Assembly (NCBI GenBank): GCA_017615125.1
Contig: JAGAAS010000073.1
Coordinates: forward strand, 1-36,090
Length of the DNA: 36,090 nt
Direction of reading: 5' to 3'
Source of the DNA: Bacteroidaceae bacterium
Lineage (GTDB): Bacteria > Bacteroidota > Bacteroidia > Bacteroidales > Bacteroidaceae
This document shows, one piece after another, positions 22,387 to 36,090 of this stretch; positions within the stretch are counted from its first letter, which is position 1; the number at the start of each line of letters is the position of its first letter. The translations under genes were made by a program, and so were the position numbers. The notes below the pieces were generated by a model. It was given only the letters and a program-made list of their open reading frames with translations, did not search any database and was not told the origin of the DNA.

Positions 22387-25074
22387 ATGATGGGCGTGGA
22401 GAGAAAGACGTTCGTGAGGCTCCTGCTGCTTTTCTGCTTGTGGTCGATGGCGGGGAGAGCGCAGGAGGTCACCCGCACTATGCCGCTGTTCTACAACGAG
22501 CTGAAGGCGACGCTCACATACCCTATGTCGTGGGACAACGCCTCCTCGTCGCAGTCGTTCCGCAAGTGGCGGAAGAAGGGTAGGGCGAAGGTGCTCGAGT
22601 GTATGTCGCCCGCTCCTCCGCTCACCAAGGACTGGGATATGGAGATCGTTGCCGAGGAGCAGCGCGACGGCTACGTGGCGCGTAAGATTCTCTTCAATGT
22701 CAACGACTGGTGCCGCGTGCCTGCCTACCTGCTTGTGCCGGATGCACCTGAGGGTGCTGGGAAACAGTTTCCTGCTGTTTTGGCCCTTCACGATCACGGG
22801 GCTCACTTCTCCATCGGCAAGGAGAAGATGGTTCGTCCGTTCGGCGTGAGCGAGGAGGTGCTGGTCGATGCCGAGAGCTGGAGCTACGCCTGCTACGACG
22901 GTATGTTCGTGGGCGACAGGCTCGCGCAGCACGGCTATGTGGTGTTGGCTGTCGATGCTCTCCTTTGGGGCGAGAGAGGCAGGAAGGAGGGGCCTGACTA
23001 CGATGCGCAGCAGGCGCTGAATGCCAATCTCGAACAGATGGGGATGTCCTTCGGCAGCTTCATCGCCTGGGACGACCTGCGTTGCGTGTCATTCCTCAAC
23101 AGCCTTCCCTTCGTGAAGAAGAATCAGATTGCTACTCTCGGACACAGCATGGGCGCCCACCGGGCGTGGATGACGGCTGCCTTGACCGACGAGGTGGCGG
23201 CAGCTGTTGCCGTCTGCTGGATGAACACCACCGACTCGCTCATGACGCTCACCAACAACCAGAACAGGGGAGGCTCGGCCTACTCGATGCTCATCCCGGG
23301 CTTGCGCCGTTGGCTCGACTACCCCGACGTTGCCTCTCTCGCATGTCCCAAGCCCGTGCTGTTCATGAACGGAAGGTACGACAAGCTGTTTCCCGTAGCG
23401 GGCGTCGAGGATGCGTATGCCAAGATGCGTAATGTGTGGACGGCGCGTGGAGCAGAATCGGACTTTCATGCAAGGATTGTGGAAGGACCTCACTACTATA
23501 GCCTCGACATGCAGCGAGAGAGCATACAGTTTCTTGACAGCGTATTTGGCATTGCTTCCCAGCAGGAGTCGGAGAGCGGCGCCGTGCGCAATCCCATCCT
23601 CCCTGCCGACTACTCCGACCCTGATGTCATCCGGGTAGGCGACACTTATTATATGACCTGTTCCGACTTCCATTTCATGGGCATGCCCGTGCTGGAGTCG
23701 TTCGATCTTGTCAACTGGCGCGTTGTCAGCCACGCCTACGACTCCATCCCCCTGCCGGGCTATTCCTCTATGGAGCGCTACGCGCAGGGTTCGTGGGCTC
23801 CGGCGATACGCTATCACGACGGGAGGTTCTGGATCTTCTTCTGCACCCCTCACGACGGCCTGTTCATGACAACGGCAGAGAGAGCGGAGGGCCCTTGGGA
23901 GCCTTTACATCTGGTGAAGGCTGTGGATCGCTGGGAAGACCCCTGTCCCTTCTGGGACGACGACGGCAACGCCTATCTGGGGCATAGCCTGCACGGCGCA
24001 GGGCCCATCATCGTCCACCGGATGTCGCCCGACGGCAGGCAGCTGCTCGACGAGGGCGTGACGGTGTACGAAGGACCTGTGGCTGAGGGAACGAAGTTCC
24101 TGAAGAAGGACGGATGGTACTATCTGTGCATCCCCGAGGGAGGGGTGGCGACAGGCTGGCAGACGGCTCTGCGGGCAAGGAGCATCTACGGGCCCTACGA
24201 GGGCAGGAGGGTGCTGGAGCAGGGAAGCACGGCTGTGAACGGTCCTCATCAGGGCGCGCTCGTCGACACGCCTGAGGGCACGTGGTGGTTCTATCATTTC
24301 CAGCAGACCGACCCGCTGGGGCGCATCGTTCATCTGCAGCCCGTCGTGTGGAAGGATGGGTTCCCGTTCATCGGAGAAGATGTTGACGGCAACGGCATCG
24401 GCGAGCCCGTCGCTGCTGTCAGCCCCTTAGCCTCTTCACCCCTTAGCCCCTCAGCCTCTCAGGGCGACTGGGCGAACGGGCCTCACTTCGGCGTCACGTC
24501 GTTTGGCTCCCTGCTGTGGCAGTGGAACCATAATCCCCATCCGGCAAACTATGCAAGGAGCGACAGCACGCTGCGCCTCTATCCCATGCAGGCAAACACG
24601 CTCAGGCAGGCTCCCAACCAGTATACGCTCAAGACGGTAGGCTCCCACAGCAGGGCATGCGTGCAGCTCGACTACGGGGCGATGACGCTGGGGCAGCGGG
24701 CAGGCCTGGAGTGCCTAGGAAGCGCGTTCAATGCCATCGGCGTGGAGATGTGCGAGAAGAACGGTCGTGTGCTTCCATTCATCTATACGGAGTTCAACGG
24801 GGAGGTGACGTATCACGGCGCTCTCCCGGCAGGGAAGGACGATGCCCGTCGCGTCTGGCTCTATGTCGACGTGCAGTCGGAGGCCAACCGCCATCAGCTT
24901 TGGTACAGCGTCGACGGCATCACGCCCCGATTCTGCGGGCCTGTCTTCGAGGAACATCCCAAGGACTGGAAGGGCAGCCGTGTGGGGCTGTTTGCCTATA
25001 GCCTTCAGGCGGAGGGGGAGGAGCGAGGCGGCTTCGCGGAGTTCGCGCGTTTCGGCTATCACAGGATGGAATAA
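22387..25074 (+). CDS. Secreted alpha/beta-hydrolase - GH43 fusion (esterase plus arabinofuranosidase/xylosidase-type)
   Basis: This is a two-enzyme protein of 895 aa predicted to act on plant cell-wall polysaccharide. A signal peptide (about 1-25, ending GRAQ) precedes an alpha/beta-hydrolase domain of the acetyl-esterase/dienelactone-hydrolase type (about 30-390). Its nucleophile is S254 in GHSMGAH, with an acid in GRYDKLFP and a histidine in GPHYYS. From about 400 a GH43 five-bladed propeller begins. It has a base D411 (YSDPD), pKa modulator D518 (WEDPCPFWD), acid E567 (VAEGTKF) and GPHQG histidine. A Pro/Ala/Ser-rich linker then joins a C-terminal beta-sandwich like that of GH43 beta-xylosidases. 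All catalytic residues appear present. The start may be the ATG at 22387 or 22390. Confidence 0.88.
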   Translation: MMGVERKTFVRLLLLFCLWSMAGRAQEVTRTMPLFYNELKATLTYPMSWDNASSSQSFRKWRKKGRAKVLECMSPAPPLTKDWDMEIVAEEQRDGYVARKILFNVNDWCRVPAYLLVPDAPEGAGKQFPAVLALHDHGAHFSIGKEKMVRPFGVSEEVLVDAESWSYACYDGMFVGDRLAQHGYVVLAVDALLWGERGRKEGPDYDAQQALNANLEQMGMSFGSFIAWDDLRCVSFLNSLPFVKKNQIATLGHSMGAHRAWMTAALTDEVAAAVAVCWMNTTDSLMTLTNNQNRGGSAYSMLIPGLRRWLDYPDVASLACPKPVLFMNGRYDKLFPVAGVEDAYAKMRNVWTARGAESDFHARIVEGPHYYSLDMQRESIQFLDSVFGIASQQESESGAVRNPILPADYSDPDVIRVGDTYYMTCSDFHFMGMPVLESFDLVNWRVVSHAYDSIPLPGYSSMERYAQGSWAPAIRYHDGRFWIFFCTPHDGLFMTTAERAEGPWEPLHLVKAVDRWEDPCPFWDDDGNAYLGHSLHGAGPIIVHRMSPDGRQLLDEGVTVYEGPVAEGTKFLKKDGWYYLCIPEGGVATGWQTALRARSIYGPYEGRRVLEQGSTAVNGPHQGALVDTPEGTWWFYHFQQTDPLGRIVHLQPVVWKDGFPFIGEDVDGNGIGEPVAAVSPLASSPLSPSASQGDWANGPHFGVTSFGSLLWQWNHNPHPANYARSDSTLRLYPMQANTLRQAPNQYTLKTVGSHSRACVQLDYGAMTLGQRAGLECLGSAFNAIGVEMCEKNGRVLPFIYTEFNGEVTYHGALPAGKDDARRVWLYVDVQSEANRHQLWYSVDGITPRFCGPVFEEHPKDWKGSRVGLFAYSLQAEGEERGGFAEFARFGYHRME

Positions 25075-25582: not shown

Positions 25583-26661
25583 TGGTTTCCCGATTGTCAC
25601 TTAGGCGCGTGCTCGCCCTCGAGGCGGTGCGCCAGATACAGAAGAGGAACATCGACGAGCATCCCCTGCGGCAGCTCTTCTGGGAGTGCACCCTGCGCTG
25701 CAACCTCCGCTGCCAGCATTGCGGCAGCGACTGCAAGGTGACGGCCGGCACGAAGGACATGCCCAAGGAGGACTTTCTGCGCGTGCTCGACGAGATTGCA
25801 GCCCGCACCGACCCCCACAAGGTCTTCGTCATCCTCACGGGCGGGGAGCCCACGATGCGTGCCGACCTCGAGGAGTGCGGACGTGCCATCTACGACAAGG
25901 GCTTCCCCTGGGGTATGGTCACCAACGGCATGATGCTCACGCCCGAGCGCTTCGAGTGCCTCCTGCGCAGCGGCATGCACTCCGCCACCGTCTCCCTCGA
26001 CGGCTTCGAGGACGACCACAACTGGATGCGCGGCAACCCCCAGAGCTTCCGACGGGCGGTGGAGGCCGTGAAGATGATGATTGCCCACGAAGGGTTCCTC
26101 TTCGACGTGGTCACCTGCGTCAACCGCCGCAACATCGGCCGCCTGCCTGAGTTCCGCGACTGGCTGGTGGAGCTGGGCCTGACGAACTGGCGCCTCTTCA
26201 CCGTCTTCCCCTCGGGGCGCGCCGTCGGCAACGACGACCTCCAGCTCACGCCCGACGAGTTCCACCGCCTCATGGCCTTCATCCGCGACACCCGCCGCGA
26301 CGGGCGCATCCGCGCCAGCTACGGCTGCGAAGGGTTTCTGGGCAACTACGAGGGCGACGTGCGCGACACGTTCTTCTTCTGCCAGGCAGGCGTCAGCGTC
26401 GCCTCCGTGCTGGCCGACGGCTCCATCTCTGCCTGCGCCAGCATCCGCTCCGACTACCATCAGGGCAACATCTACACCGACCATTTCATGGACGTCTGGG
26501 AGCAGCACTTCCGTCCCTTCCGCGACCGTTCGTGGATGAAGCAGGGCGAGTGCGCCGACTGCCGTTTCTTCCGCTACTGCCGCGGCGGAGGCATGCATCT
26601 CCGCGACGGCGACGGGCAGCTCGCCTTCTGTCACCTCCACCGCTTCGACCTGCTCCGGTAA
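25582..26661 (+). CDS. Radical SAM/SPASM peptide- or lipoprotein-modifying enzyme
   Basis: The protein is 359 aa. The radical SAM cluster motif is C40-NLR-C44-QH-C47, preceded by C36 and followed by C51. The GGEP motif (LTGGEPTMR) and a typical SVSLDG-like strand (ATVSLDGFEDDH) confirm the barrel. The C-terminal SPASM region has CQAGVS, ADGSISAC, GECADCRFFRYC and a final FCHLH, enough cysteines for one or two auxiliary clusters. N-terminal IDEHPLRQLFWECTLRCN resembles the TIGR04133 rSAM/lipoprotein-system family. The reaction is unknown; related SPASM enzymes make thioether or carbon-carbon cross-links in peptides. The gene is much richer in G+C than the rest of the window and overlaps the second lipoprotein gene by 1 bp. 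Confidence 0.9.
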   Translation: MVSRLSLRRVLALEAVRQIQKRNIDEHPLRQLFWECTLRCNLRCQHCGSDCKVTAGTKDMPKEDFLRVLDEIAARTDPHKVFVILTGGEPTMRADLEECGRAIYDKGFPWGMVTNGMMLTPERFECLLRSGMHSATVSLDGFEDDHNWMRGNPQSFRRAVEAVKMMIAHEGFLFDVVTCVNRRNIGRLPEFRDWLVELGLTNWRLFTVFPSGRAVGNDDLQLTPDEFHRLMAFIRDTRRDGRIRASYGCEGFLGNYEGDVRDTFFFCQAGVSVASVLADGSISACASIRSDYHQGNIYTDHFMDVWEQHFRPFRDRSWMKQGECADCRFFRYCRGGGMHLRDGDGQLAFCHLHRFDLLR

Positions 26662-26919
26662 TGTCCCTTCCCCGCACAGCCTTCCCCCCGCACCCCTGGA
26701 AGACCGAAGGTCATTATCCGATTGCCGTCCGAACGCTTGTTTCCTTAGACACCGCTAAGTTACAACATCTTTTTCACCCGCTGCACGTTATTGCACGTTA
26801 CTGCACGTTATTTTTGAAAAAAGTTTTTATTGTCTTGTAATGCACTGAAAGACACTTCGTTGAGAAGAGTTTTTTTACCGTTTTTTATCGCGCAGCCGAG
26901 TGCCGATGTGTCTTTCTGC
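26662..26919. other. Non-coding spacer between the rSAM gene and the BspA remnant
   Basis: I see no credible gene here. The first part is C-rich and the rest changes abruptly to A/T-rich sequence. It holds the 10-bp tandem repeats at 26781-26810 and T-runs near 26867-26886 that could help terminate transcription. It lies downstream of both flanking genes. Confidence 0.6.
26781..26810. repeat. Three tandem 10-bp repeats (yTGCACGTTA)
   Basis: CTGCACGTTA, TTGCACGTTA and CTGCACGTTA follow each other without gaps. The period of 10 bp is about one helical turn, so a protein could bind the same face three times. No palindrome within the unit is complete and no gene overlaps it. Confidence 0.8.
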
Positions 26920-27426
26920 TTACTTCGCTATGACTTTCACCGATTTCTCTCCAACTTTCACTATCGCCACATTGCCTGCATGGAGGCTTGTATCGATGGT
27001 GGCACTTCCATTCCAGCTGATGGCAGCACCAAGTAGAACGCCGTTGGCGTTGTAAATGCTGATACTTGTTCCGTCGTTTGCGCCATTCACAGTAACCTGT
27101 CCTTGTGTCAGCACGACGGTTGCCGGAGTCGCACTCCAAGTGATTCCATCTGGCGTTGGATCTCCTTCTTCGATAGATACAAATCTTTTCCAGCCCTCCG
27201 CAGCCTTATACTTTTCAATAGACCCTGCCGGCACATATAACGTGGCATTATTAAAGGTATTGTTACTAAAAGTGTTTGTATCTATAGTAAACGGACTTTC
27301 AATCTTTGAAATGACTTCGAGTATATCACAGTCGTAGAAAGCCATCCATCCTATGCTCGTCACGCTGTTGGGGATCGTTAAGGAAGTCAGACTGCTGCAG
27401 TCCTGGTATTTGTAAGTGCTTTTATA
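26920..27426 (-). pseudogene. 5'-truncated BspA-type leucine-rich-repeat surface protein remnant
   Basis: Only the C-terminal part of a surface or secreted LRR_5 protein remains, about 168 codons. It begins in mid-repeat (CSSLTSLTIPNSVTSIG) and goes on through SPFTIDTNTFSNNTF and LYVPAGSIEKYKAAEGW, which are hallmark BspA segments. It ends in a sorting-tail-like beta-sandwich (ISIYNANGVLLG to AIVKVGEKSVKVIAK) of the kind used in type IX secretion. A stop codon lies immediately upstream in frame (27427-27429) and there is no start or signal peptide. The likely break is near 27410-27430, where sequence becomes A/T-rich. It is read as a remnant at the edge of the inserted region. Confidence 0.8.
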
Positions 27427-27429
27427 TCA

Positions 27430-27745
27430 GTTATTTGCAAATAAAACGGTAGAAAAGTGGTGATGTAGATTCTGGAAAGGAAGAGAAAGATGAAGATTTA
27501 ACACTTTTAACTTTTCAAAACCACAAATAACATAAAAATGTGCAGTTCTTGAGCTGTTGTTATCTATGAATGTTTCTATGGCCACGAACCCAAACTGCGA
27601 CAGATTGTCGCAGTTTTACCTTTTTGCGAATATTCAACTGTATATAATGATGGTATTTTACCGAATAATTGCATAAAACGCAAATAAAAACGCCCTATTT
27701 ACGTTAAATTTTGTCTTTGTCTAACAATATTCAAGATAAATTTGT
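27430..27745. other. A/T-rich intergenic region at the start of the restriction island
   Basis: No gene is supported. It contains one good inverted repeat (27592-27616) and ends at the promoter of the XRE regulator. No tRNA or attachment site could be recognised. Confidence 0.55.
27592..27616. repeat. 10-bp inverted repeat with 5-base loop
   Basis: AAACTGCGAC (27592-27601) and GTCGCAGTTT (27607-27616) are perfect reverse complements. TACCTTTTTG follows on the plus strand. It could be a terminator whose gene is now lost, or an operator. Neither flanking gene places it at a clear transcript end. Confidence 0.6.
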
Positions 27746-27753
27746 TAACTTTG
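27746..27753 (+). promoter_or_regulatory. -7 promoter box of the XRE-WYL operon
   Basis: TAACTTTG matches TAnnTTTG exactly and lies 27 bp before the ATG at 27781. The -33 element is poor. TAACAA (27722-27727) and TTGTTA (27742-27747) form an inverted repeat overlapping the promoter, a possible operator for the XRE regulator itself. The palindrome found at the two later promoters is absent here. Confidence 0.6.
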
Positions 27754-27780
27754 TACCCACAATCTATAATAATAATTGCT

Positions 27781-28014
27781 ATGACAAGAGACATCAATCG
27801 TATCAAGGTGGTTTTGGCAGAGAAGAAGCGGACAAATAAATGGTTGGCAGAGACATTGGGTAAAGATCCAGCCACAGTTTCCAAGTGGTGCACAAATTCT
27901 GCTCAGCCAGGACTTGAAACTCTGCTTCAAATAGCAGAATGTTTGGAGGTAGACGTGAAGGAACTTATCAACTCCAGCAAAAATGATGTGATGTATATTC
28001 AAGTAACCAAGTAA
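27781..28014 (+). CDS. XRE-family DNA-binding regulator
   Basis: This is a 77-residue helix-turn-helix protein of the Cro/C1 type, acting as a small dimeric repressor or controller. The HTH lies at about residues 6-60, with the turn and recognition helix in KDPATVSKWCTNSAQP. The fold then ends in ECLEVDVKELI and a short tail. The ATG at 27781 is chosen: the frame is open to 27742, but that segment covers the promoter. Small XRE proteins of this type often stand beside restriction-modification genes as controllers. It precedes the WYL gene by 15 bp, and the two probably form one operon that regulates the island. Confidence 0.88.
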   Translation: MTRDINRIKVVLAEKKRTNKWLAETLGKDPATVSKWCTNSAQPGLETLLQIAECLEVDVKELINSSKNDVMYIQVTK

Positions 28015-28029
28015 AGAGTCTCTATATTT

Positions 28030-29067
28030 ATGCCAGTAAATAAGAACGCACAATTCAGATACCAAATCTTAGATCGGTGTTTTAGCGACTTCCGTCATAA
28101 GTATGACTTTGACACCCTCTTAGAGAAGGTTAATGACCACTTGGAGGATGTTCAAGGGGGTGATTCTATGATAGGTATTCGGCAATTGAGAGGAGACATC
28201 AATGCTATTCGCAAGATGCTTCCTGATGGAATATACCTTGACGCAAAGCCGTATTACGACAAGAAATGTTATTACCGCTATTCAGAGCGCGATTTTTCGA
28301 TATTCCAGAATGAGCTGTCACCAGACGAGGTTCAAAAACTGCGTTCCACCATTGAGATGCTTAGTCGATACCGTGGTGTTCCTAATAAAGCTTGGTTGGA
28401 AGAAGTTATCTCCAACCTTGAATATCGCTTTGGTATTAAGTCGAATAGTGATAATGTAGTCGCATTTGAGCAGAATGAACAATTAAAAGGTTTAGAATTT
28501 TTATCGGAGGTAATTGATACAGCCGTGAACCATATACCTATTATTATATATTATAAGACATATAAGGGAAAGGAGCTAACATCTACCTTTCATCCCTACC
28601 ACGTTAGACAATACAATAATCGCTGGTTCCTGTTTGGTTATGAGGAAGAATCCGGCAAGATTGCAAACAAGGCATTAGACCGAATTCAACACATATCATT
28701 GGCAAATGTTCCCTTTATACCAAATAGTACAATAGACTTTGGTCATTTTTTTGATGACGTGGTGGGTGTTTCCATTCCGAATGATGATATTCACAAGGAA
28801 ACCATCATACTTCAGTTTACAGAAACAAGATTTCCCTATGTCACATCCAAACCTATTCACAAATCACAAACGATTCTCAGTGAAAAAGAATGCACTATAT
28901 CATTGGAAGTCAAGCCCACTCGCGAGTTGGAACAGCAGATTTTATCTTTCGGTTCTGACGTTGAAGTTCTCTTACCTGAGGCATTCAGGGCAAAGATTGG
29001 AAGAAAAATTGCAGATATATATAAAAATTATTTTCCTGTGCAGAATGAATGCACAGATGGTATGTAA
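28030..29067 (+). CDS. WYL-domain transcriptional regulator
   Basis: This 345-residue protein has an N-terminal winged-helix-like region (about 5-80, with QLRGDINAIRKMLPDG). The WYL domain lies at about 155-225, with the triad in RWFLFGYEEE and the conserved arginine in ALDRIQHI. A C-terminal WCX-like domain (HKETIILQF to LPEAFRAKI) follows. WYL proteins such as BrxR and CapW repress defence operons and respond to nucleotides or nucleic acid ligands. Here the last codons overlap a perfect palindrome, and the stop codon TAA is part of the -7 box of the next operon, so the gene end and a probable operator are the same DNA. Confidence 0.9.
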   Translation: MPVNKNAQFRYQILDRCFSDFRHKYDFDTLLEKVNDHLEDVQGGDSMIGIRQLRGDINAIRKMLPDGIYLDAKPYYDKKCYYRYSERDFSIFQNELSPDEVQKLRSTIEMLSRYRGVPNKAWLEEVISNLEYRFGIKSNSDNVVAFEQNEQLKGLEFLSEVIDTAVNHIPIIIYYKTYKGKELTSTFHPYHVRQYNNRWFLFGYEEESGKIANKALDRIQHISLANVPFIPNSTIDFGHFFDDVVGVSIPNDDIHKETIILQFTETRFPYVTSKPIHKSQTILSEKECTISLEVKPTRELEQQILSFGSDVEVLLPEAFRAKIGRKIADIYKNYFPVQNECTDGM

Positions 29068-29072
29068 TTTTG
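29036..29072 (+). promoter_or_regulatory. Operator-promoter module A (before the kinase-fusion operon)
   Basis: A perfect palindrome CTGTGCA (29036-29042), 7 bases, TGCACAG (29050-29056) is followed 8 bp later by TAATTTTG (29065-29072), a match to TAnnTTTG. No TTTG is present at -33, where the palindrome sits instead. This arrangement suits either a repressor or an activator replacing the -33 contact. The same module recurs at 32751-32787 with identical spacing. Confidence 0.75.
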
Positions 29073-29108
29073 CAGCGACATTTGAAGTTGAACCCTAATT
29101 TGTTTTGC

Positions 29109-31637
29109 ATGAAGATGACTGCTGAGACAATGAACATGAGTAACGAGACTGAAAGATTTAACTACGCATTAGATCTTTTCTTTGGGATGAATCCAGCCAA
29201 AAGGTACTGGATTTTGCTGGCAATGTATTTTGCAAAGAATAAAAAGCTACAGACGATTGACAATTACGAAGGTAATGATTTCGTTATGGCTACCATGTCT
29301 GTTGATCTCATTGGGCACAGAAACATCGTTGATGAATGGAATCAGAAGGGTGTCAAGAGTCGTTCTGTCGTCGCAATTGTGGATGATGACAAGAAAGATA
29401 TCATAGATGAAATATATTATGGTTTCGATGTAGATGCCATTAATTATTTAAACAGTCAACCCAATAAAGAACTAGGTTTCTTTGGGCTTAGACAGATGGA
29501 GCCAACATACCTCGTTGAGGTAGCTGAAATATTAATTGGCATTTCAGATGATTGGTATGAAAAGAATACCAGTTGGGCGTTTTTATCTATACTTCGAAGA
29601 GCCAGAAGAAACAATCGTTTTGATGGACCTTTTTATCAGCCCGAAGAGCTAACTCGTCTTATTGTTGAACTATTAGACGCTCAAAAAGGCTCAGTATATA
29701 ATCCCTACGCAGGATTATGTTCTTTTGGTGCGACGATATCATCCAACTGCCGTTATTACGCGCAGGAACTTTCATTAGACTATGTAATAGGCAAGTTAAA
29801 CTTGCTGTTACACAATAGGACTAATGCTGTATGCGAGAAGGAAGACTCGCAAATCAAATGGAAAGGAGCATTAGGTTTTGACTATATTGTTAGTTCGCCT
29901 CCTATTGGTGTTAGGTGTAATAATAAATACAGGACAACAGAAAGAGATTATCTATTTCGTTCTGCCATGGATGTTCGCCATAAGGCTATCGGCGTATATC
30001 CATCTTCCATTTGCTTTGACAGTGGTTTGTCATCCACCCGAGTTTCAAAACTTGTTGAAAACGACTATATCGAAAGTGTGATATTGCTTGCGAATAAAAC
30101 CTTTCAGTACACTGGAATAGAACCAGTGATTATTGTTGTCAACAAAAATAAAAAGCAAAAAAAAGCAATACGCTTTGTAGATGCTTCTGATTGCTTTGAA
30201 ACAACTGGTAGAGACATCAAGTTGTCTGTTGACTCTATATTGTCGCTTTGCAAAACAGATGGAGATCATTCTCGATTGGTTCACGTTTCCGAAATTGAGT
30301 CTAATAATTTCAAACTTTATCCCAAACTGTACCTCAAGAAGGAACTTGAAGTGCCAGCAGGGATGAAAGTAGTTTATCTCCGAGAAGTTCTCAATTCACT
30401 ACCTTGTAAATCTCCGCGAGACAGCAGAGGACGTGTGTTCTCTTTTGTTAATAGAGACTCTATTAAAGCAAAAGGGATTATAAAGGCTGAAGATTTGGAA
30501 ATCCGTGCAATCGATAGTCGCAATTATCGTGTTGTCAACGAAGATTGTCTTATCTTTGTTAGAGGTGGGCAGTATACAGCCAAATATCTTATAACTAATG
30601 GTGAAGATGTCTATCTGCGAAGCATGTTCCGTCCATTTTTAGTTAATACGGATATTATAGAGCCTGCGTATCTGCTTTCTGAATTCTCTAAAGATTACTT
30701 CTCTGAGCAGTTGTATTCATACGGTTCAGGTTTTTCGGGTCCAAGAATATCAACTGATGAACTCTTGAACCTGAAAATTCTTGTGCCAGAACTTCGGGAA
30801 CAACAATTAAAGATGTCTCTTGACACTATCGAAAAGAACCTGGAGACATTGGAGAGTCAGAAAGAAGCTGAGTATAAGAATAAAATGGAGAATTTTGTCC
30901 TGAACCAGCGGCAAAGGAAACATGCTGTTGCGCAAGTACTCAACGAAATTCTTCCTTCTATGGAAAACATTGAGAGCTTCATTCTTGACAACGAAACCGT
31001 TTCAAAAGATTCAATCGTCTCTCGCAGATTCGGTACAACTTTGCAAACTTATTTGGCAACCGTAAGAAAGCAACTTGATAAGATTGTCTCAATGGTTGAT
31101 AACTTTACTAGTCAGGAACAGTACGGCAAGCCTGAAGTTATTAGAGTGGAAGATTTCCTTTCTGAATACTGTTCGTCCAAGAAGAATCTGGGGATTCCTG
31201 TGACGTACATTCATCACTACGAGGAAGAAGAGATAGAGCAAGAAGTGAAAATCTCCAAAAAAGATTTAACGCAGATGCTTGACAATCTCATTGCTAACGC
31301 CGTAAAGTATGGTGCGACTGACGATATTGAGCAGAAATATGGTTCAACGGATGAGAAACGTAGAGATTTTCAGATACGTATCGAAACCCATGCTATTCAT
31401 GATTATAAGGATCCCGTTGTTATTCGTGTTAGTAATAATGGTGAAGCCGTATCAAAGTCTATTTCTCTTGACAAGTTGTTTACTTGGGGAATTGGTCGCG
31501 GCACAGGTATCGGATGTTGGCAGGTGAAAGAGATTGCTGAACACTTTGGCGGTTCTGCTTCTTATGAAGAGTTTCCAAACGATCCTGACGGCTTTGTAAG
31601 TGAGTTTAGAATTGTTTTACCTTTAGACGATGATTAA
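29109..31637 (+). CDS. Fusion: degenerate N6-adenine methyltransferase - HsdS-like region - histidine-kinase ATPase
   Basis: The start at 29109 is chosen because the in-frame ATG at 29049 lies upstream of the predicted transcription start; 29115, 29130 and 29136 are alternatives. The 842 residues show three parts. The first is an HsdM-like fold with NPYAGLCSFG (198-207, motif I place) and SSPPIG (262-267) where active enzymes have NPPY/F, so methylation is doubtful. The second (about 420-565) resembles a target-recognition domain ending STDELLNLKILVPELREQQ, as HsdS repeats do, and runs into a coiled coil. The third is kinase-like: candidate phospho-histidine H605 (QRKHAVAQVLNEI), N-box DNLIANAVKYG (725-735), G1 SNNGEAV (775-781) and G2 GRGTGIG (796-802). 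It is followed 2 bp later by a receiver gene. I do not recognise this combination. Confidence 0.85.
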   Translation: MKMTAETMNMSNETERFNYALDLFFGMNPAKRYWILLAMYFAKNKKLQTIDNYEGNDFVMATMSVDLIGHRNIVDEWNQKGVKSRSVVAIVDDDKKDIIDEIYYGFDVDAINYLNSQPNKELGFFGLRQMEPTYLVEVAEILIGISDDWYEKNTSWAFLSILRRARRNNRFDGPFYQPEELTRLIVELLDAQKGSVYNPYAGLCSFGATISSNCRYYAQELSLDYVIGKLNLLLHNRTNAVCEKEDSQIKWKGALGFDYIVSSPPIGVRCNNKYRTTERDYLFRSAMDVRHKAIGVYPSSICFDSGLSSTRVSKLVENDYIESVILLANKTFQYTGIEPVIIVVNKNKKQKKAIRFVDASDCFETTGRDIKLSVDSILSLCKTDGDHSRLVHVSEIESNNFKLYPKLYLKKELEVPAGMKVVYLREVLNSLPCKSPRDSRGRVFSFVNRDSIKAKGIIKAEDLEIRAIDSRNYRVVNEDCLIFVRGGQYTAKYLITNGEDVYLRSMFRPFLVNTDIIEPAYLLSEFSKDYFSEQLYSYGSGFSGPRISTDELLNLKILVPELREQQLKMSLDTIEKNLETLESQKEAEYKNKMENFVLNQRQRKHAVAQVLNEILPSMENIESFILDNETVSKDSIVSRRFGTTLQTYLATVRKQLDKIVSMVDNFTSQEQYGKPEVIRVEDFLSEYCSSKKNLGIPVTYIHHYEEEEIEQEVKISKKDLTQMLDNLIANAVKYGATDDIEQKYGSTDEKRRDFQIRIETHAIHDYKDPVVIRVSNNGEAVSKSISLDKLFTWGIGRGTGIGCWQVKEIAEHFGGSASYEEFPNDPDGFVSEFRIVLPLDDD

Positions 31638-31639
31638 TC

Positions 31640-32740
31640 ATGCAGATAAATGTACTTTGGATAGATGATCAGCCCAATGAGGCGTTCATCGATAAGGCAG
31701 ACAAGGTGGGTATCTACATTGAAGTTCGCGAAAATGTAAATGCTGGGATAGATGAGTTGTTAAATTCATCTACAAGTTATGATGCTATTATTCTTGATGC
31801 GAACTGCATCAGCCATAATGATGGCTCAAAAGAAACAGACATTTCAGCACTTGGCTATGCTCTTCGCATGATTACAGCAAACCAGATAACCATTCCATGG
31901 TTCGTGTATTCTGGAGGTGGCTTTTCTGGCGAAGAATCAATCAATATCATTGTAAGAGCTTACGAAAGAACCTACGATGAAAATGGTTGGTATAAAAAGC
32001 CAGTAGAAATAAACGAGCTATTTTCCAAAATCAAGCAAGTAGTCCCCGATTCGGATGCCTACAAGATTAAGGAAAAGTATTCTGAAATCTTTTCGTTTTA
32101 TCCTAATGCAAAGGAGCTTGTTGACATTATATTATATATAGAAAGAAACAAGTCTAACAATCCTGCCGTCTTTAACCTAATTCGTAAAGAACTTGATTGG
32201 ATAATGGGCTATTTGTATGAGTGTGGAATGTTAAGGGATCCATATAAGGGCAGTAACCTAAGTGAGTGTAGTACCTTCCTTGGTAATAAGAATTTACAAA
32301 GCCTTGTGCCTCTGCATATCCAACGTAGTTTTCATTCAACTTCTTCTATATGCAACGAAGGTTCTCATAGATTGGTCGTTGATCAACTTGTAAAAGAAGG
32401 GAAAGCCCCCTATCTTGTTCAGTCTACAGTTTTGGAGTTTTTGAACATATTATTTTGGCTCAAAGATATGCCAAAGACGCCTGAAGGAAGGGAATACCTA
32501 AAAGGTATTGTTGAAGAACTACTGAAAGATGAAGTGCCACAAATAGAAGACTACGAAGGCAAGGATTTTATTGTAGAACAAGATGAGAAGAACAACTTCC
32601 ATTGCGGTCAATGCCGTCTATCATTTAAGGCTGCACAAAGCTATAAAGGTAAAATGGTAACTCTTTTTGATGTGACTGAGAATGATGCAAAGAGTAAGGA
32701 TAATTATCCATATTTTGCAAAATTCCGACTAAAAGAATAG
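31640..32740 (+). CDS. Receiver-domain (response-regulator-like) protein with unknown C-terminal domain
   Basis: Residues 1 to about 135 form a CheY-like receiver. They include the acidic pair D9/D10 (VLWIDDQP), phospho-acceptor D53 (YDAIILDAN), the Ser position S91 (WFVYSGGG) and the conserved lysine K120 before Pro (WYKKPVE). The remaining 230 residues show no helix-turn-helix or known output domain that I can name. A helical part with SICNEGSHRLVVDQLV, ending FLNILFWLKDMP, is loosely like HEPN/DUF4145 proteins but lacks the usual arginine. The last 60 residues are a separate small domain. The gene is 2 bp after the kinase fusion, so it is its likely phosphotransfer partner. Its output is unknown. 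Confidence 0.82.
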   Translation: MQINVLWIDDQPNEAFIDKADKVGIYIEVRENVNAGIDELLNSSTSYDAIILDANCISHNDGSKETDISALGYALRMITANQITIPWFVYSGGGFSGEESINIIVRAYERTYDENGWYKKPVEINELFSKIKQVVPDSDAYKIKEKYSEIFSFYPNAKELVDIILYIERNKSNNPAVFNLIRKELDWIMGYLYECGMLRDPYKGSNLSECSTFLGNKNLQSLVPLHIQRSFHSTSSICNEGSHRLVVDQLVKEGKAPYLVQSTVLEFLNILFWLKDMPKTPEGREYLKGIVEELLKDEVPQIEDYEGKDFIVEQDEKNNFHCGQCRLSFKAAQSYKGKMVTLFDVTENDAKSKDNYPYFAKFRLKE

Positions 32741-32750
32741 ATTATTTCTT

Positions 32751-32787
32751 CTGTACAGAATGACTGCACAGAAAGTTTATAACTTTG
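32751..32787 (+). promoter_or_regulatory. Operator-promoter module B (before the HsdMS-HsdR operon)
   Basis: CTGTACA (32751-32757), 7 bases, TGCACAG (32765-32771) repeats module A with one arm mismatch. TAACTTTG (32780-32787) follows after the same 8-bp gap. The sequence after the box (TGCA, then TTGAAC nearer the gene) is also similar. It lies in the 74-bp gap after the receiver gene, so the restriction genes have their own regulated promoter. Confidence 0.75.
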
Positions 32788-32814
32788 CAACAAAAATTGA
32801 CAATTGAACGAAAT

Positions 32815-35517
32815 ATGACAGAACAGAATAACATACAGTCTCAGCCTCGGGACATCATGCATTACGAGAGCGATATATGGGCGATAGCAGACTTGCTGCT
32901 GGCAGCCAGCGTGAAGCAGAGCGACTTCCCTGCTTATATGATGCCGTTCTTCGCATTGATGATGCTTGAAGGACGCATGCTGAATGCCATGAAGCGCGTG
33001 GAGGAAGAGGAAGGACTGACGGTGAAGGATGACCCTGAGGACTTTAAGGAGGCTTTCATCGACATGGATTGCGGATACAATGAATATATTGTGATGGAGG
33101 GCAAGACGCTGAGCTGTATCTGCAGTAATGACACTACTTTTGAACAGGACTTCGACAGTTACCTGAAAGCCTTTGACGATGTGCTGAAGAAACTATTGGG
33201 AATTGAGCGTGGGAAGGATGAAAAGAAGTACCTGAACATGGACTACTATGTGGCTGAACTGCGCAGCAAAAAGATCTTGTTGTCTGTCATCACGGCTTGG
33301 TCGAAGATAGACCTTTCGCCTTACGACAACTCTGCCATCACGACATTGGAGGAGCACATCAAACGTAAATGGGCCGACATCAGCGCATCTACGGCGGGAG
33401 AACAATACACGCCTGACGACATTATCTCGCTGATTGCGGACATCGTGGCTACCAAGGTGAATAAACCAAAGGATCAGAATATCCATGTTTATGACCCTAC
33501 TTGCGGTGGTGCGAACCTGTTGTTTGGTGTGGCAGACCGTCTTCAGACACAAGCAGGCTACAAGAACATCCACACTTGGGGTAGTGAGTATAACGATGCT
33601 CTCTATGCTTTAGCTGCCATTGAGAGCCGATTCCGCAGTCATTCACATATTTACTATGGCAACACACTTACAACAGCTCCTTGTATGGGACGTGATATTG
33701 ATGTTATTGTGGCCAATCCCCCATACGGCACCAAGTGGAGTGGTTATGAGAAAGAAATCAAGAACGACCAAAAGGGACAGTTCCCTGGCGGTTTGCCATC
33801 TGTGAGTGACGGACAGTTGCTGTTCATGCAGCATATCCTCTGGCAACTCGATGATAATGGTATTGCTGTAGAGGTGCATAATGGTTCTACTCTGTTCAGT
33901 GGCGATGCTGGAAGCGGAGAGAGCAACATCCGTAAGTATATCTTCGACCACGATTGGGTAGAAGCCATTATCCAGATGCCTCAGAATGAGTTCTTCAATA
34001 CTGGTATCTACACTTACCTATGGATCATGAACAAGCAGAAGCCATTTGAGCGTCAAGACAAGGTGGCTCTCATTGATGGCAGTAAGTTGTGGCGATTACT
34101 AAAGAAAGCTAAGGGCGATAAGCGTCGCGAGATGACAGAAGAACATCGAACCAAGATTGTTCAGGCTTTGACAGAGTTCAAGCCGAGTGACATCTGCAAG
34201 ATATTTGACCGCGAACACTTCTACTACAACAAACAGAGTTTAACGCTGACGGAGGTGGATGTAAACGGTGATTATCTAAAAGAGCCTGTTGCACTGAAAA
34301 AGATTAAGTCTGTTGTGTTGAACGATGAAACGTTGACGGAGTTGAAAGGTCTCGATACGAATGCAGGAAATGCGCTGAAAAACAAACTGAAGGCTGCTAA
34401 TATAGATGAAGACCGAATCGTGATTACACTCGAAGATGGCACTTGCTATAGTTGGGACCAAGAACAGGAAACTGTCATTTGTGAAAGCAAAGAAGGACGT
34501 AAAGCCTTGGGATGTGGAACATTTAAGTTTGACTTGAGCACTTCTAAGGGAAAGAAGTCACTTAAGGTTGTGCTTATTCCCCGTACAACAGCAGACTATG
34601 AGATTATACCACATCACTTTGATGAGCATGAGAACCTGCGTGAGATAGATGCTTTTATGCAGAAGTACGTTTTCAAACCATACGTTCTTGGTAAGAATGT
34701 GGTTGGTGTAGAAGTGAACTACAATAAGGAGTTTTATGTCCCAGATAAAAAATATGATATTATTGCTATTACCAAAGAAATAAAAAGAATATCAGACAAA
34801 TTAGAGACTCTTGTGTATTCTAAATTTGAACTATTAGACAATGTAATAAAAACTGGACTAAACCATAAGGTCTCATTCAAAGATACAGAAATAGATGGCA
34901 TAGGATTAATCCCCAAACATTGGAAAGTTAGGAGGTTGAAAGAAATTGGAATTATTAGTTCTGGAATGACCCCAAACACGAAGAAAGAAGCGTATTATAA
35001 CAAGGGAAAACACCCTTGGCTAAATACGGGATGCGTTCAAGATTGCGAGATACATACCCCAGCAGATTATGTCACAGACTTAGCCCTAAAAGAATGTAAA
35101 GGACTTGTATATTACCCTGTTGACACTATACTTATAGCCATGTATGGAGGTGGTACTATTGGTAATGTTGGAATTATGCGTATCCCTGCAACAATAAATC
35201 AAGCATGTTGTGCATTATCTTTAAACAAGAAAGTCGTACTACCAAAATATGTATTCTATTCCTTATACGCAAAAAAGAAATGGATAATTAGTCGTGGCTT
35301 TGGAGGTACTCAGGTTAATCTCAGCCAAGGGCAAATTGCTAATTTTGCGATAGAAATACCTCCTATAAAAGAGCAAATCTCAATAGTTAACTATTTAGAT
35401 GAAGAATTCTCAAAAATCGATGTTGCCATAAAAGAGATTACATTTCAAATTGACTCTTTAAAACTACTAAGAAATACATTAACGAAAGAGATTATATCTG
35501 GTCAACTTCATATATAA
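32815..35517 (+). CDS. Type I restriction-modification HsdM-HsdS fusion with one target-recognition domain
   Basis: This is a predicted N6-adenine DNA methyltransferase fused to its specificity module (900 aa from the ATG at 32815; the TTG at 32785 lies in the promoter). The N-terminal helical domain is followed by GEQYTP (195-200), SAM-binding DPTCGG (227-232) and catalytic NPPYG (301-305), all intact. After a linker region, residues from about 696 resemble half of an HsdS: IPKHWKVRRLKEIG, a recognition domain, GGTQVNLSQGQIANF, IPPIKEQ and a coiled coil. Two copies would be needed to read a bipartite site. The last 260 codons are clearly richer in A+T than the methylase part, which suggests recombination of the recognition domain. 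hsdR begins 11 bp later. Confidence 0.92.
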   Translation: MTEQNNIQSQPRDIMHYESDIWAIADLLLAASVKQSDFPAYMMPFFALMMLEGRMLNAMKRVEEEEGLTVKDDPEDFKEAFIDMDCGYNEYIVMEGKTLSCICSNDTTFEQDFDSYLKAFDDVLKKLLGIERGKDEKKYLNMDYYVAELRSKKILLSVITAWSKIDLSPYDNSAITTLEEHIKRKWADISASTAGEQYTPDDIISLIADIVATKVNKPKDQNIHVYDPTCGGANLLFGVADRLQTQAGYKNIHTWGSEYNDALYALAAIESRFRSHSHIYYGNTLTTAPCMGRDIDVIVANPPYGTKWSGYEKEIKNDQKGQFPGGLPSVSDGQLLFMQHILWQLDDNGIAVEVHNGSTLFSGDAGSGESNIRKYIFDHDWVEAIIQMPQNEFFNTGIYTYLWIMNKQKPFERQDKVALIDGSKLWRLLKKAKGDKRREMTEEHRTKIVQALTEFKPSDICKIFDREHFYYNKQSLTLTEVDVNGDYLKEPVALKKIKSVVLNDETLTELKGLDTNAGNALKNKLKAANIDEDRIVITLEDGTCYSWDQEQETVICESKEGRKALGCGTFKFDLSTSKGKKSLKVVLIPRTTADYEIIPHHFDEHENLREIDAFMQKYVFKPYVLGKNVVGVEVNYNKEFYVPDKKYDIIAITKEIKRISDKLETLVYSKFELLDNVIKTGLNHKVSFKDTEIDGIGLIPKHWKVRRLKEIGIISSGMTPNTKKEAYYNKGKHPWLNTGCVQDCEIHTPADYVTDLALKECKGLVYYPVDTILIAMYGGGTIGNVGIMRIPATINQACCALSLNKKVVLPKYVFYSLYAKKKWIISRGFGGTQVNLSQGQIANFAIEIPPIKEQISIVNYLDEEFSKIDVAIKEITFQIDSLKLLRNTLTKEIISGQLHI

Positions 35518-35528
35518 TTAATTTGCGT

Positions 35529-36090
35529 ATGAACGAACTGAAGATACAGCATGAATATGTGATGGAGTTCCTTTGCCGCCTAGAGGAGCAAGGTGGTCTT
35601 GGATATCGTAGCGTGAGCAATATCGTTGTAAGCAACGATCTGTTTATTCCCTCCATAATGGGTGAGTTTGTCAAGAACAGCCAGCCCGACACATGGGCGC
35701 GTCTGCTAAGGAAGTTCGGAAATGATGAGCAAACCTTGCAAACAGCGTTGAAGGACAAGGTGAAAGAGACTCTTTTGGATGCTCAAAATGTAGCCACATA
35801 CATCAACACGCACAAATCTATCACCTTTGAGGGTGAAAAGGTATGGCTCTTCTATGTATCAGGAACAGAACTGAAAGGAGATGAAGAATTCAAGCAGAAT
35901 ATTTTCTGTGCTGTGGAGGAATCGAGTCATACGCTCAAGATTGGCGAGACAAAGCTTTATACTATCCGTCCTGATATCATGTTCTTTGTCAATGGTATCT
36001 ACATTGGCTACATGGAGCTGAAGTCTTCCACAAAAGGACAGACAGCAAAGACTAATGGACGACAGAAGGTAGCCAAGGATTATCTTGCTA
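35529..36090 (+). CDS. hsdR: Type I restriction endonuclease HsdR, N-terminal part (continues beyond window)
   Basis: Only the first 187 codons are inside the window. The ATG at 35529 begins MNELKIQHEYVMEFLC. The PD-(D/E)xK nuclease site is seen in TIRPDIMFFVNGIYIGYMELKSS, split as D149 and E163-L-K165, the usual RPD...ELK arrangement of HsdR proteins. The helicase/translocase motor should follow downstream. It is 11 bp after the HsdMS gene and surely in the same operon, so the complete restriction enzyme is driven by module B. Nothing in this part is broken. Confidence 0.92.
   Translation, partial: MNELKIQHEYVMEFLCRLEEQGGLGYRSVSNIVVSNDLFIPSIMGEFVKNSQPDTWARLLRKFGNDEQTLQTALKDKVKETLLDAQNVATYINTHKSITFEGEKVWLFYVSGTELKGDEEFKQNIFCAVEESSHTLKIGETKLYTIRPDIMFFVNGIYIGYMELKSSTKGQTAKTNGRQKVAKDYLA

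Follow-up and report, generated by a model that had tools for sequence, protein, structure and literature searches.

A putative portable two-component alarm in Bacteroidota, with a restriction-derived pseudo-enzyme as sensor and a HEPN-like receiver output

What is a histidine kinase doing in a type I restriction operon? The question is raised by the final 8.3 kb of contig JAGAAS010000073.1, whose entire 36,090 bases form the window analyzed here, taken as part of a Bacteroidota genome. These 8.3 kb read as one operon, all on the forward (+) strand, of a helix-turn-helix (HTH) regulator, a WYL regulator, a sensor kinase, a receiver protein, a fused HsdM-HsdS and the start of HsdR. The sensor gene (29109..31637, 842 residues) joins a pseudo-HsdM and one HsdS half to a histidine kinase, and 2 bp after it begins the gene of a 366-residue protein (31640..32740) with a receiver (REC) domain, a DUF4145/HEPN-like output and a small C-terminal domain. 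Our proposal, which we consider about evenly balanced between right and wrong, is that the two form a portable two-component alarm attached to nucleic-acid-targeting defenses, in which a pseudo-enzyme derived from restriction-modification (R-M) would sense DNA or an attack on R-M and phosphorylate a REC-HEPN-like effector.

The initial annotation had seen a degenerate methylase, an HsdS-like region and a histidine kinase in one protein, and profile searches bear this out. Pfam finds N6_Mtase (5.7e-23, residues 165-412) and HATPase_c (1.2e-11, residues 718-840), and a profile of eight sensors matches, in the PDB, HsdM of EcoR124II (1.3e-35), the HsdS chains 3okg_A (4.3e-8) and 5ybb_D (5e-8), and complete kinases with dimerization/histidine phosphotransfer (DHp) and catalytic ATP-binding (CA) domains, for example HprS (8.3e-10) and SrrB (1.7e-7). 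These kinase matches place a helical DHp region at residues 561-680 (30789..31148), overlapping the end of the HsdS half and containing H605 (codon 30921..30923), the presumed phospho-acceptor; an AlphaFold model of very low confidence has helices at 561-628 and 636-667. The GHKL ATPase at residues 718-840 (31260..31628) carries N, G1 and G2 boxes. We aligned 28 sensors, including that of the window and that of its near copy L002 (L numbers denote loci in our collection) and excluding the split kinase of L067; identity to the window sensor is mostly 14-34% among these relatives. H605, N730, N776, G778, G800 and G802 are invariant in all 28, and position 726 is Asn in 24. The boxes named initially are conserved, with the amendment that G1 is N-x-G in every sensor (NNG in 22, the window among them) rather than the usual D-x-G. 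At E <=0.1, Pfam recognizes HATPase_c in 26 of the 28, N6_Mtase in 22, Methylase_S in 15 and HisKA in one. With phospho-acceptor His, N box, G1 and G2 all present, the C-terminus is predicted from sequence profiles to be a histidine kinase.

The methylase part (residues 165-412, 29601..30344) appears to be dead. In the window it has NPYAGLCSFG as motif I, E220 as the motif II acid and SPPI in place of the NPPY/F of motif IV. Among the 24 sensors with a methylase segment (those of L039, L042, L070 and L083 have none and were left out), NPP[YF] occurs in none, versus 15 of 15 HsdMs; NPP remains in three (L079, L080, L085). An acidic motif II residue is kept in 22 of the 24, as Glu in 21 and Asp in one, and motif I is altered, often to an NPFAGxxSFG-like form; in the rows that diverge most (L043, L045, L080-L082) the alignment is uncertain. 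Methylase catalysis is, on this evidence, lost as a family trait, and the retained acid together with motif I suggests a bound cofactor or a fold kept without catalysis. S-adenosylmethionine (SAM) may still be bound. The 164 residues ahead of the methylase part (29109..29600) match nothing in Pfam.

The recognition part of the sensor lies at residues 461-586 (30489..30866) and includes the sequence VPELREQQ. It is the sole significant domain found by a local HsdS hidden Markov model (i-Evalue 7.6e-11); the Methylase_S model of Pfam reaches 0.0028 over residues 466-587, below its cut-off. The local model finds one significant half in 19 of the 28 sensors, including the HNH-type sensor of L070. 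The similarity to HsdS recorded in the initial annotation therefore stands, with the correction that the region is a single half and not a whole two-half HsdS. A proline at the end of the HsdS part is kept in 23 of the 28 sensors, 40-47 residues ahead of H605 in 20 of those 23. Ahead of the HsdS part, most sensors are methylase-like and that of L070 has HNH; the short sensors of L039 and L042 lack this front part, and in L083 it is unassigned. The usual sensor core is thus an HsdS half feeding a kinase, with a variable part in front.

The REC domain of the partner protein (residues 1-134, 31640..32041) has D9, D10, D53, S91 and K120, with D53 (codon 31796..31798) as the presumed phosphorylation site. 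Pfam Response_reg does not match the window receiver and matches just 2 of 27 receivers, at best with 0.037. A profile of the 27 matches receiver domains in the PDB, the best with E 6.8e-5 over profile positions 6-62, and those of CheY length span positions 6-134. A PDE8A_N match of the window receiver in Pfam (0.0035, under the cut-off) was read as the receiver-like region. The 27 aligned receivers include the window and leave out those of L043, L067 and L073 (split or contig-cut) and L074, and mostly share 17-39% identity with the window receiver. D10, D53, P86, R182 and H243 are invariant in all of them, position 9 is always acidic, position 91 is always Ser or Thr, and K120 is present in 26. 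The acidic pair, phospho-Asp, Ser/Thr and Lys of a response regulator are thus in place, by alignment. The phosphotransfer, ATPase and acidic residues singled out initially have been kept in the relatives of both proteins, and this conservation, as far as aligned sequences can tell, lies far beyond chance and confirms the observation.

Behind the REC domain, residues 138-288 (32051..32503), which hold R182 and H243, form a helical region that remotely resembles DUF4145. In hhalign, a seven-sequence comparison gave 42.65%, whereas 20 column shuffles stayed at <=0.24% and the reversed alignment reached 0.91%, so an output that had been called unknown in the initial annotation now has a candidate relative. 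The accessible text of PMC3710099 and PMC3506569 places DUF4145 (PF13643) in the HEPN superfamily and reports it fused to restriction subunits, among them type I R subunits; here it would stand behind a receiver domain. One of the seven HsdR proteins scanned beside the pair carries DUF4145 in cis (L077), and we observed the domain at the N-terminus of the HsdR subunits L077:336-3830 and L088:1-1830. At least 366 residues long, 14 of the 27 receivers carry an additional small C-terminal domain. That of the window (67 residues, 32537..32737) has a CxxC; it is weakly OB/S1-CSD-like in some relatives, and ten aligned tails gave weak OB-fold signals (BOF 0.008 in one of the ten, none in the window's own). 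A classical transcriptional response regulator was considered and rejected, since the 27 receivers contain no convincing DNA-binding domain (a weak WHD_CHMP7 match of 0.12 in one).

How widely the pair occurs was read from whole genomes of Bacteroidota and from plasmid, phage and viral collections, some loci being cut by contig ends. Three receiver searches were positive in 7 of 301, 10 of 247 and 11 of 247 genomes, with the genome of the window included in every count, and gave 26 distinct loci. A kinase of the sensor family adjoins the receiver in 24 of the 26, as expected had the receiver been correctly called its cognate partner, and is missing at L072 and L074. Two further loci, L040 and L041, were dropped as methylases without this kinase. 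In 26 intact pairs, those from the kinase search included, the interval between the two genes ranges from -35 to +17 bp. Of the 26 receiver loci, 17 contain a WYL gene. Three relatives have split genes (the receivers of L043 and L073, the kinase of L067).

Type I systems are clearly enriched nearby. A Methylase_S gene other than the sensor lies within 10 kb (<=10 kb) in 12 of the 26 loci, versus 0.59 expected (P about 5e-14), the expectation being taken from each genome's own count with the sensors' own matches included. Other defense neighbors are found in four receiver loci (L070, L083, L074, L082), which at L082 are an AAA ATPase, BrxL-like and UvrD/Gabija-like genes; the kinase search added L038, with a GmrSD neighbor. 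The suspected adjacency to type I or other defense genes is accordingly real, and strict specificity for type I is ruled out by the Shedu, GmrSD, type III CRISPR, Gabija-like and TPR neighbors. By this genomic association, the pair has a putative role in anti-phage defense.

Several of these loci deserve description of their own. At L070:1185-5615, a Shedu nuclease gene stands beside the receiver and a sensor that combines HNH, an HsdS half and the kinase. At L083:6759-9974, kinase and receiver lie inside a type III-A operon (Cas10, Csm5), ahead of a weak Csx1-CARF protein and Cas6; neither a methylase nor an HsdS part was found in this sensor. L074:4304-5155 (-) is an orphan receiver right after Cmr6 in a type III-B locus (Cmr1, Cas10, Cmr3-6 and a reverse transcriptase-Cas1 fusion, RT-Cas1), with no kinase in the stretch, and is possibly an unreported type III ancillary protein. 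Another orphan, L072:1481-2341, has no kinase of the sensor family in its stretch, and a nearby frame of 871 residues was read as MutS-like. A protein of ~880 residues follows the receiver at L039:6852-9488 and L042:11033-13717, with no match in Pfam (E 0.01) or PADLOC (E 0.001).

The pair is found on plasmids too. A mobilizable plasmid of Myroides odoratimimus encodes WYL, the sensor under the label 'N-6 DNA methylase', the receiver as a 'hypothetical protein', and HsdM, HsdS and HsdR. When the receivers of the window, L076 and L081 served as queries, the only plasmid matches were the same three Myroides records, and the L084 query matches none; the sensor query meets 376 plasmid records, and among the 20 listed just the three from Myroides extend into the kinase. 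Phage records gave no receiver match with two queries, no relative was found in viral contigs, and one scan of genome contigs matched Prevotellaceae bacterium MN60 only.

MN60, which holds locus L002, is the closest named relative by this locus and bears on the portability of the pair. A cassette of the 3' part of WYL, the kinase and the receiver (28732..32803) is 93% identical between the two by blastn. When window positions 26501-36090 were compared with L002, nothing matched downstream of the cassette, and the sole other match was 147 bp at 70%, upstream. The genes after the cassette belong to different type I systems, their HsdMs 25% identical, and the WYL proteins are 51% identical overall. 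The same pattern holds across loci in Mantel tests, which leave out L002 as a near copy and L043 and L073 for their split receivers: kinase distances follow receiver distances (r=0.66, 0 of 2000 permutations, n=25). Kinase and adjacent HsdM show no such correlation (r=0.05, p=0.26, n=13), although kinase and receiver again reach 0.66 on the same 13 loci. The kinase-WYL correlation is weak (r=0.19, p=0.018, n=18), and that of receiver and HsdM is borderline (r=0.22, p=0.053, n=13). Kinase and receiver evidently are inherited as a unit, often with the WYL gene. In none of 14 loci does the sensor's recognition half match the HsdS of its own locus best, and the idea that this half reads the target sequence of its R-M partner was rejected. 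Since one cassette accompanies different R-M systems and the own HsdS is never the best match, something generic, for instance foreign or structured DNA or else anti-restriction factors, is favored as the signal over a partner's target site.

The following mechanism would accommodate these features. The helices of the kinase would dimerize the sensor and thereby bring two pseudo-M/S arms together as an M2S2-like clamp, which would be engaged by DNA that should not be there or by an attack on the R-M machinery. Its engagement would change the helix linking the recognition half to H605, where the kinase would autophosphorylate before passing the phosphate to D53. Once phosphorylated, the receiver would free its DUF4145/HEPN-like domain; this effector is most likely directed at RNA and would arrest growth as a backup to restriction. 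Until infection, expression of the operon would be held down by the WYL and HTH regulators. The scheme is weakest at the ligand, and sensing of DNA, of methylation or of invaders is our inference.

A number of observations weigh against this account. No HsdS half is found by the local model in 9 of the 28 sensors. A signal helix locked in heptad register was rejected, as the spacing from proline to H605 is not heptad-locked. The recognition part of a classical HsdS is less conserved than the methylase; a hypervariable recognition half was looked for in the sensors and rejected, being less conserved than the methylase part in just 2 of 6 comparable pairs. On the receiver side, Pfam detects DUF4145 in just 1 of the 27 (0.0076), and an Abi_C-type output, compared with nine sequences, was rejected at 0.23% in hhalign. 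HEPN RNases have an Arg 4-6 residues from the catalytic His. An Arg 5-7 residues before the invariant His is present in just 2 of the 27 receivers (L039, L042) and is absent from that of the window; because of this count RNase activity is doubtful, and the HEPN-like domain may be non-canonical. The AlphaFold models of the two proteins are of very low confidence (pLDDT 37.7 and 30.3). Lastly, 10 of the 26 receiver loci have no recognized defense gene in the stretch read: L071, which has a TPR protein; L039 and L042, with the ~880-residue protein; L045, L066 and L067, which are cut by contig ends; and L044, L068, L072 and L073, which have no R-M match. The distal gene of L045 has RecD-like candidate matches and was excluded from the defense count. 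L068, on the other hand, speaks for the account: it has WYL, kinase and receiver without a nearby R-M match, and therefore the unit may carry its own output.

The first alternative keeps the kinase and changes what it perceives. Phages carry anti-restriction factors, DNA mimics of the Ocr and ArdA kind and SAM-depleting enzymes, and if these bound the pseudo-M/S clamp or emptied its SAM pocket, the sensor would be a bait, triggered by them and not by DNA, and the module would guard the adjoining R-M system. An HsdM-like bait would be expected to lose catalysis and still keep the altered motif I and the motif II acid, as these sensors do, and a generic sign of attack on R-M fits the use of one cassette before two type I systems, the lack of any best match to the own HsdS and the occurrence of the pair with several HsdR types among the seven scanned. 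However, sensors beside Shedu, GmrSD and the TPR protein retain HsdS-like halves where factors aimed at type I should not matter, those of L039 and L042 have no methylase part, and that of L083 has neither part. We regard a guard of this kind as unlikely.

In the second alternative the receiver would be no effector, and would act instead as a phospho-switch that binds the neighboring nuclease and licenses or restrains it or its expression, for instance against self-restriction on entering an unmodified host. The strong linkage of the pair to nuclease systems points this way, as do the orphan receiver directly after Cmr6, the borderline correlation of receiver and HsdM, and the DUF4145 inside the HsdR subunits of L077 and L088, which might be an interaction domain. 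Against it, kinase and HsdM distances are uncorrelated and the partners come from unrelated systems; the receivers lack a convincing DNA-binding domain, 17 of the 26 loci already have a WYL gene, and the L068 copy has no R-M genes nearby. We judge such a switch unlikely.

Among described systems the alarm proposed here comes nearest in concept to Detocs, which has a TPR-type sensor, a buffer receiver and a receiver-PNP effector. The accessible text of PMC11728103 describes Detocs (DtcA/DtcB/DtcC) as a two-component defense of kinase and response regulator, and a kinase and receiver in defense islands follow the same general idea. A divergent Detocs is nevertheless very improbable: by Pfam, the 28 sensors contain no TPR sensor beyond a weak TPR_CHK1 match (0.024), the 27 receivers contain no PNP-type domain, and no second receiver of the same family, and hence no buffer receiver, was found in the loci. 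The sensor is instead R-M-derived, the output HEPN-like and the placement beside other defenses, a distinction drawn from the description of Detocs and not from protein comparison. Least credible of all is that the sensor is debris without function, an HsdM-HsdS gene that decayed and happened to fuse to a kinase. The degenerate methylase motifs and the split genes of three relatives could be cited for this reading, which is already contradicted by the correlated distances, by frames that are open in 28 sensors and by kinase and receiver residues that stay invariant in distant relatives.

Other known systems share single features with the alarm. The sensor profile resembles HsdM and HsdS of type I enzymes but lacks motif IV, has one recognition half and is fused to a kinase, while genuine HsdM and HsdS are encoded separately in the same operon. 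The WYL gene heading the operon recalls CapW/BrxR, and a GHKL kinase that controls immunity recalls CapK with CapS (PMC13373217, accessible text), where CapK, with HTH, STAS and GHKL domains, phosphorylates a serine of a STAS repressor that also has a wHTH domain. In our case the sensor is HsdM/HsdS-like with a receiver partner, and Pfam scans of the window proteins, sensors and receivers gave no STAS match. MADS and BREX-related systems are likewise multigene defenses with a methylase, and the MAD2 profile of PADLOC matches the sensor weakly (3.9e-7); the accessible text of PMC12839542 mentions, for BREX-related systems, a minimal histidine kinase joined to a Schlafen RNase and contains no pseudo-methylase kinase with a receiver. 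Type III CRISPR loci also contain Cam2, a receiver-domain protein with no associated kinase (PMC11229360, accessible text), like the orphan of L074; its membrane helices are N-terminal and its REC is C-terminal, where ours has an N-terminal REC and a helical output.

That the pair belongs to no named system, as first supposed, agrees with what we found. The open-access literature, including the accessible portions of PMC12839542, PMC11229360, PMC7159879, PMC13373217, PMC3710099, PMC3506569 and PMC11728103, yielded no description of this architecture, and neither did PADLOC 2023 (window proteins and the 27 receivers) or NCBIfam (window proteins) name such a system. The 25 PADLOC models listed for the sensor are all R-M subunits except the weak MAD2, and in NCBIfam it matches HsdM and several histidine kinases, all far below their cut-offs. 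We see the pair as a variant of two-component-type defense with a real chance of being a class of its own.

The remaining features of the window frame the pair. At the operon head, the small Cro/CI-type HTH regulator (27782..28014; HTH_3 1.9e-8 on a longer open reading frame) is given the start ATG 27782, the mechanical frame beginning at TTG 27742, and upstream of it lies a stretch resembling the Bacteroides promoter pattern. The WYL/WCX regulator follows (28030..29067; Pfam WCX 7.4e-10, WYL 1.9e-8). The sensor frame runs from its first ATG as 29049..31637, and ATG 29109 is the better start because the L002 frame has no ATG before it. Behind the receiver, the genuine HsdM fused to HsdS (32815..35517, frame from TTG 32785; N6_Mtase 6.8e-50, Methylase_S 3.7e-23) has motif IV intact as NPPY, and HsdR is present by its 5' part (35529..36090), cut by the contig end and matching other HsdRs at 1e-8. 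Outside the defense region, window positions 22387-25074 encode one protein that joins an alpha/beta-hydrolase region to a GH43 glycosidase with its C-terminal domain (Pfam).

The signals to which histidine kinases respond are mostly chemical or come from the envelope. If the alarm proposed here is real, a kinase with a dead type I restriction enzyme as its input would link DNA-level surveillance directly to phosphotransfer, and R-M, Shedu, GmrSD and CRISPR loci could share one alarm. The boldest form of the proposal, that this is a new class of immune signaling in which a dead R-M enzyme serves as a cytoplasmic receptor for nucleic acids or anti-restriction, wired by His-Asp transfer to a REC-HEPN effector and interchangeable among type I R-M, GmrSD, Shedu and type III CRISPR in Bacteroidota, we put forward tentatively, as a possibility with the balance somewhat against it. 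The pair gives a likely role to the Myroides plasmid proteins that now bear the labels of a DNA methylase and a hypothetical protein, and it bears on whether type I restriction has a programmed backup.

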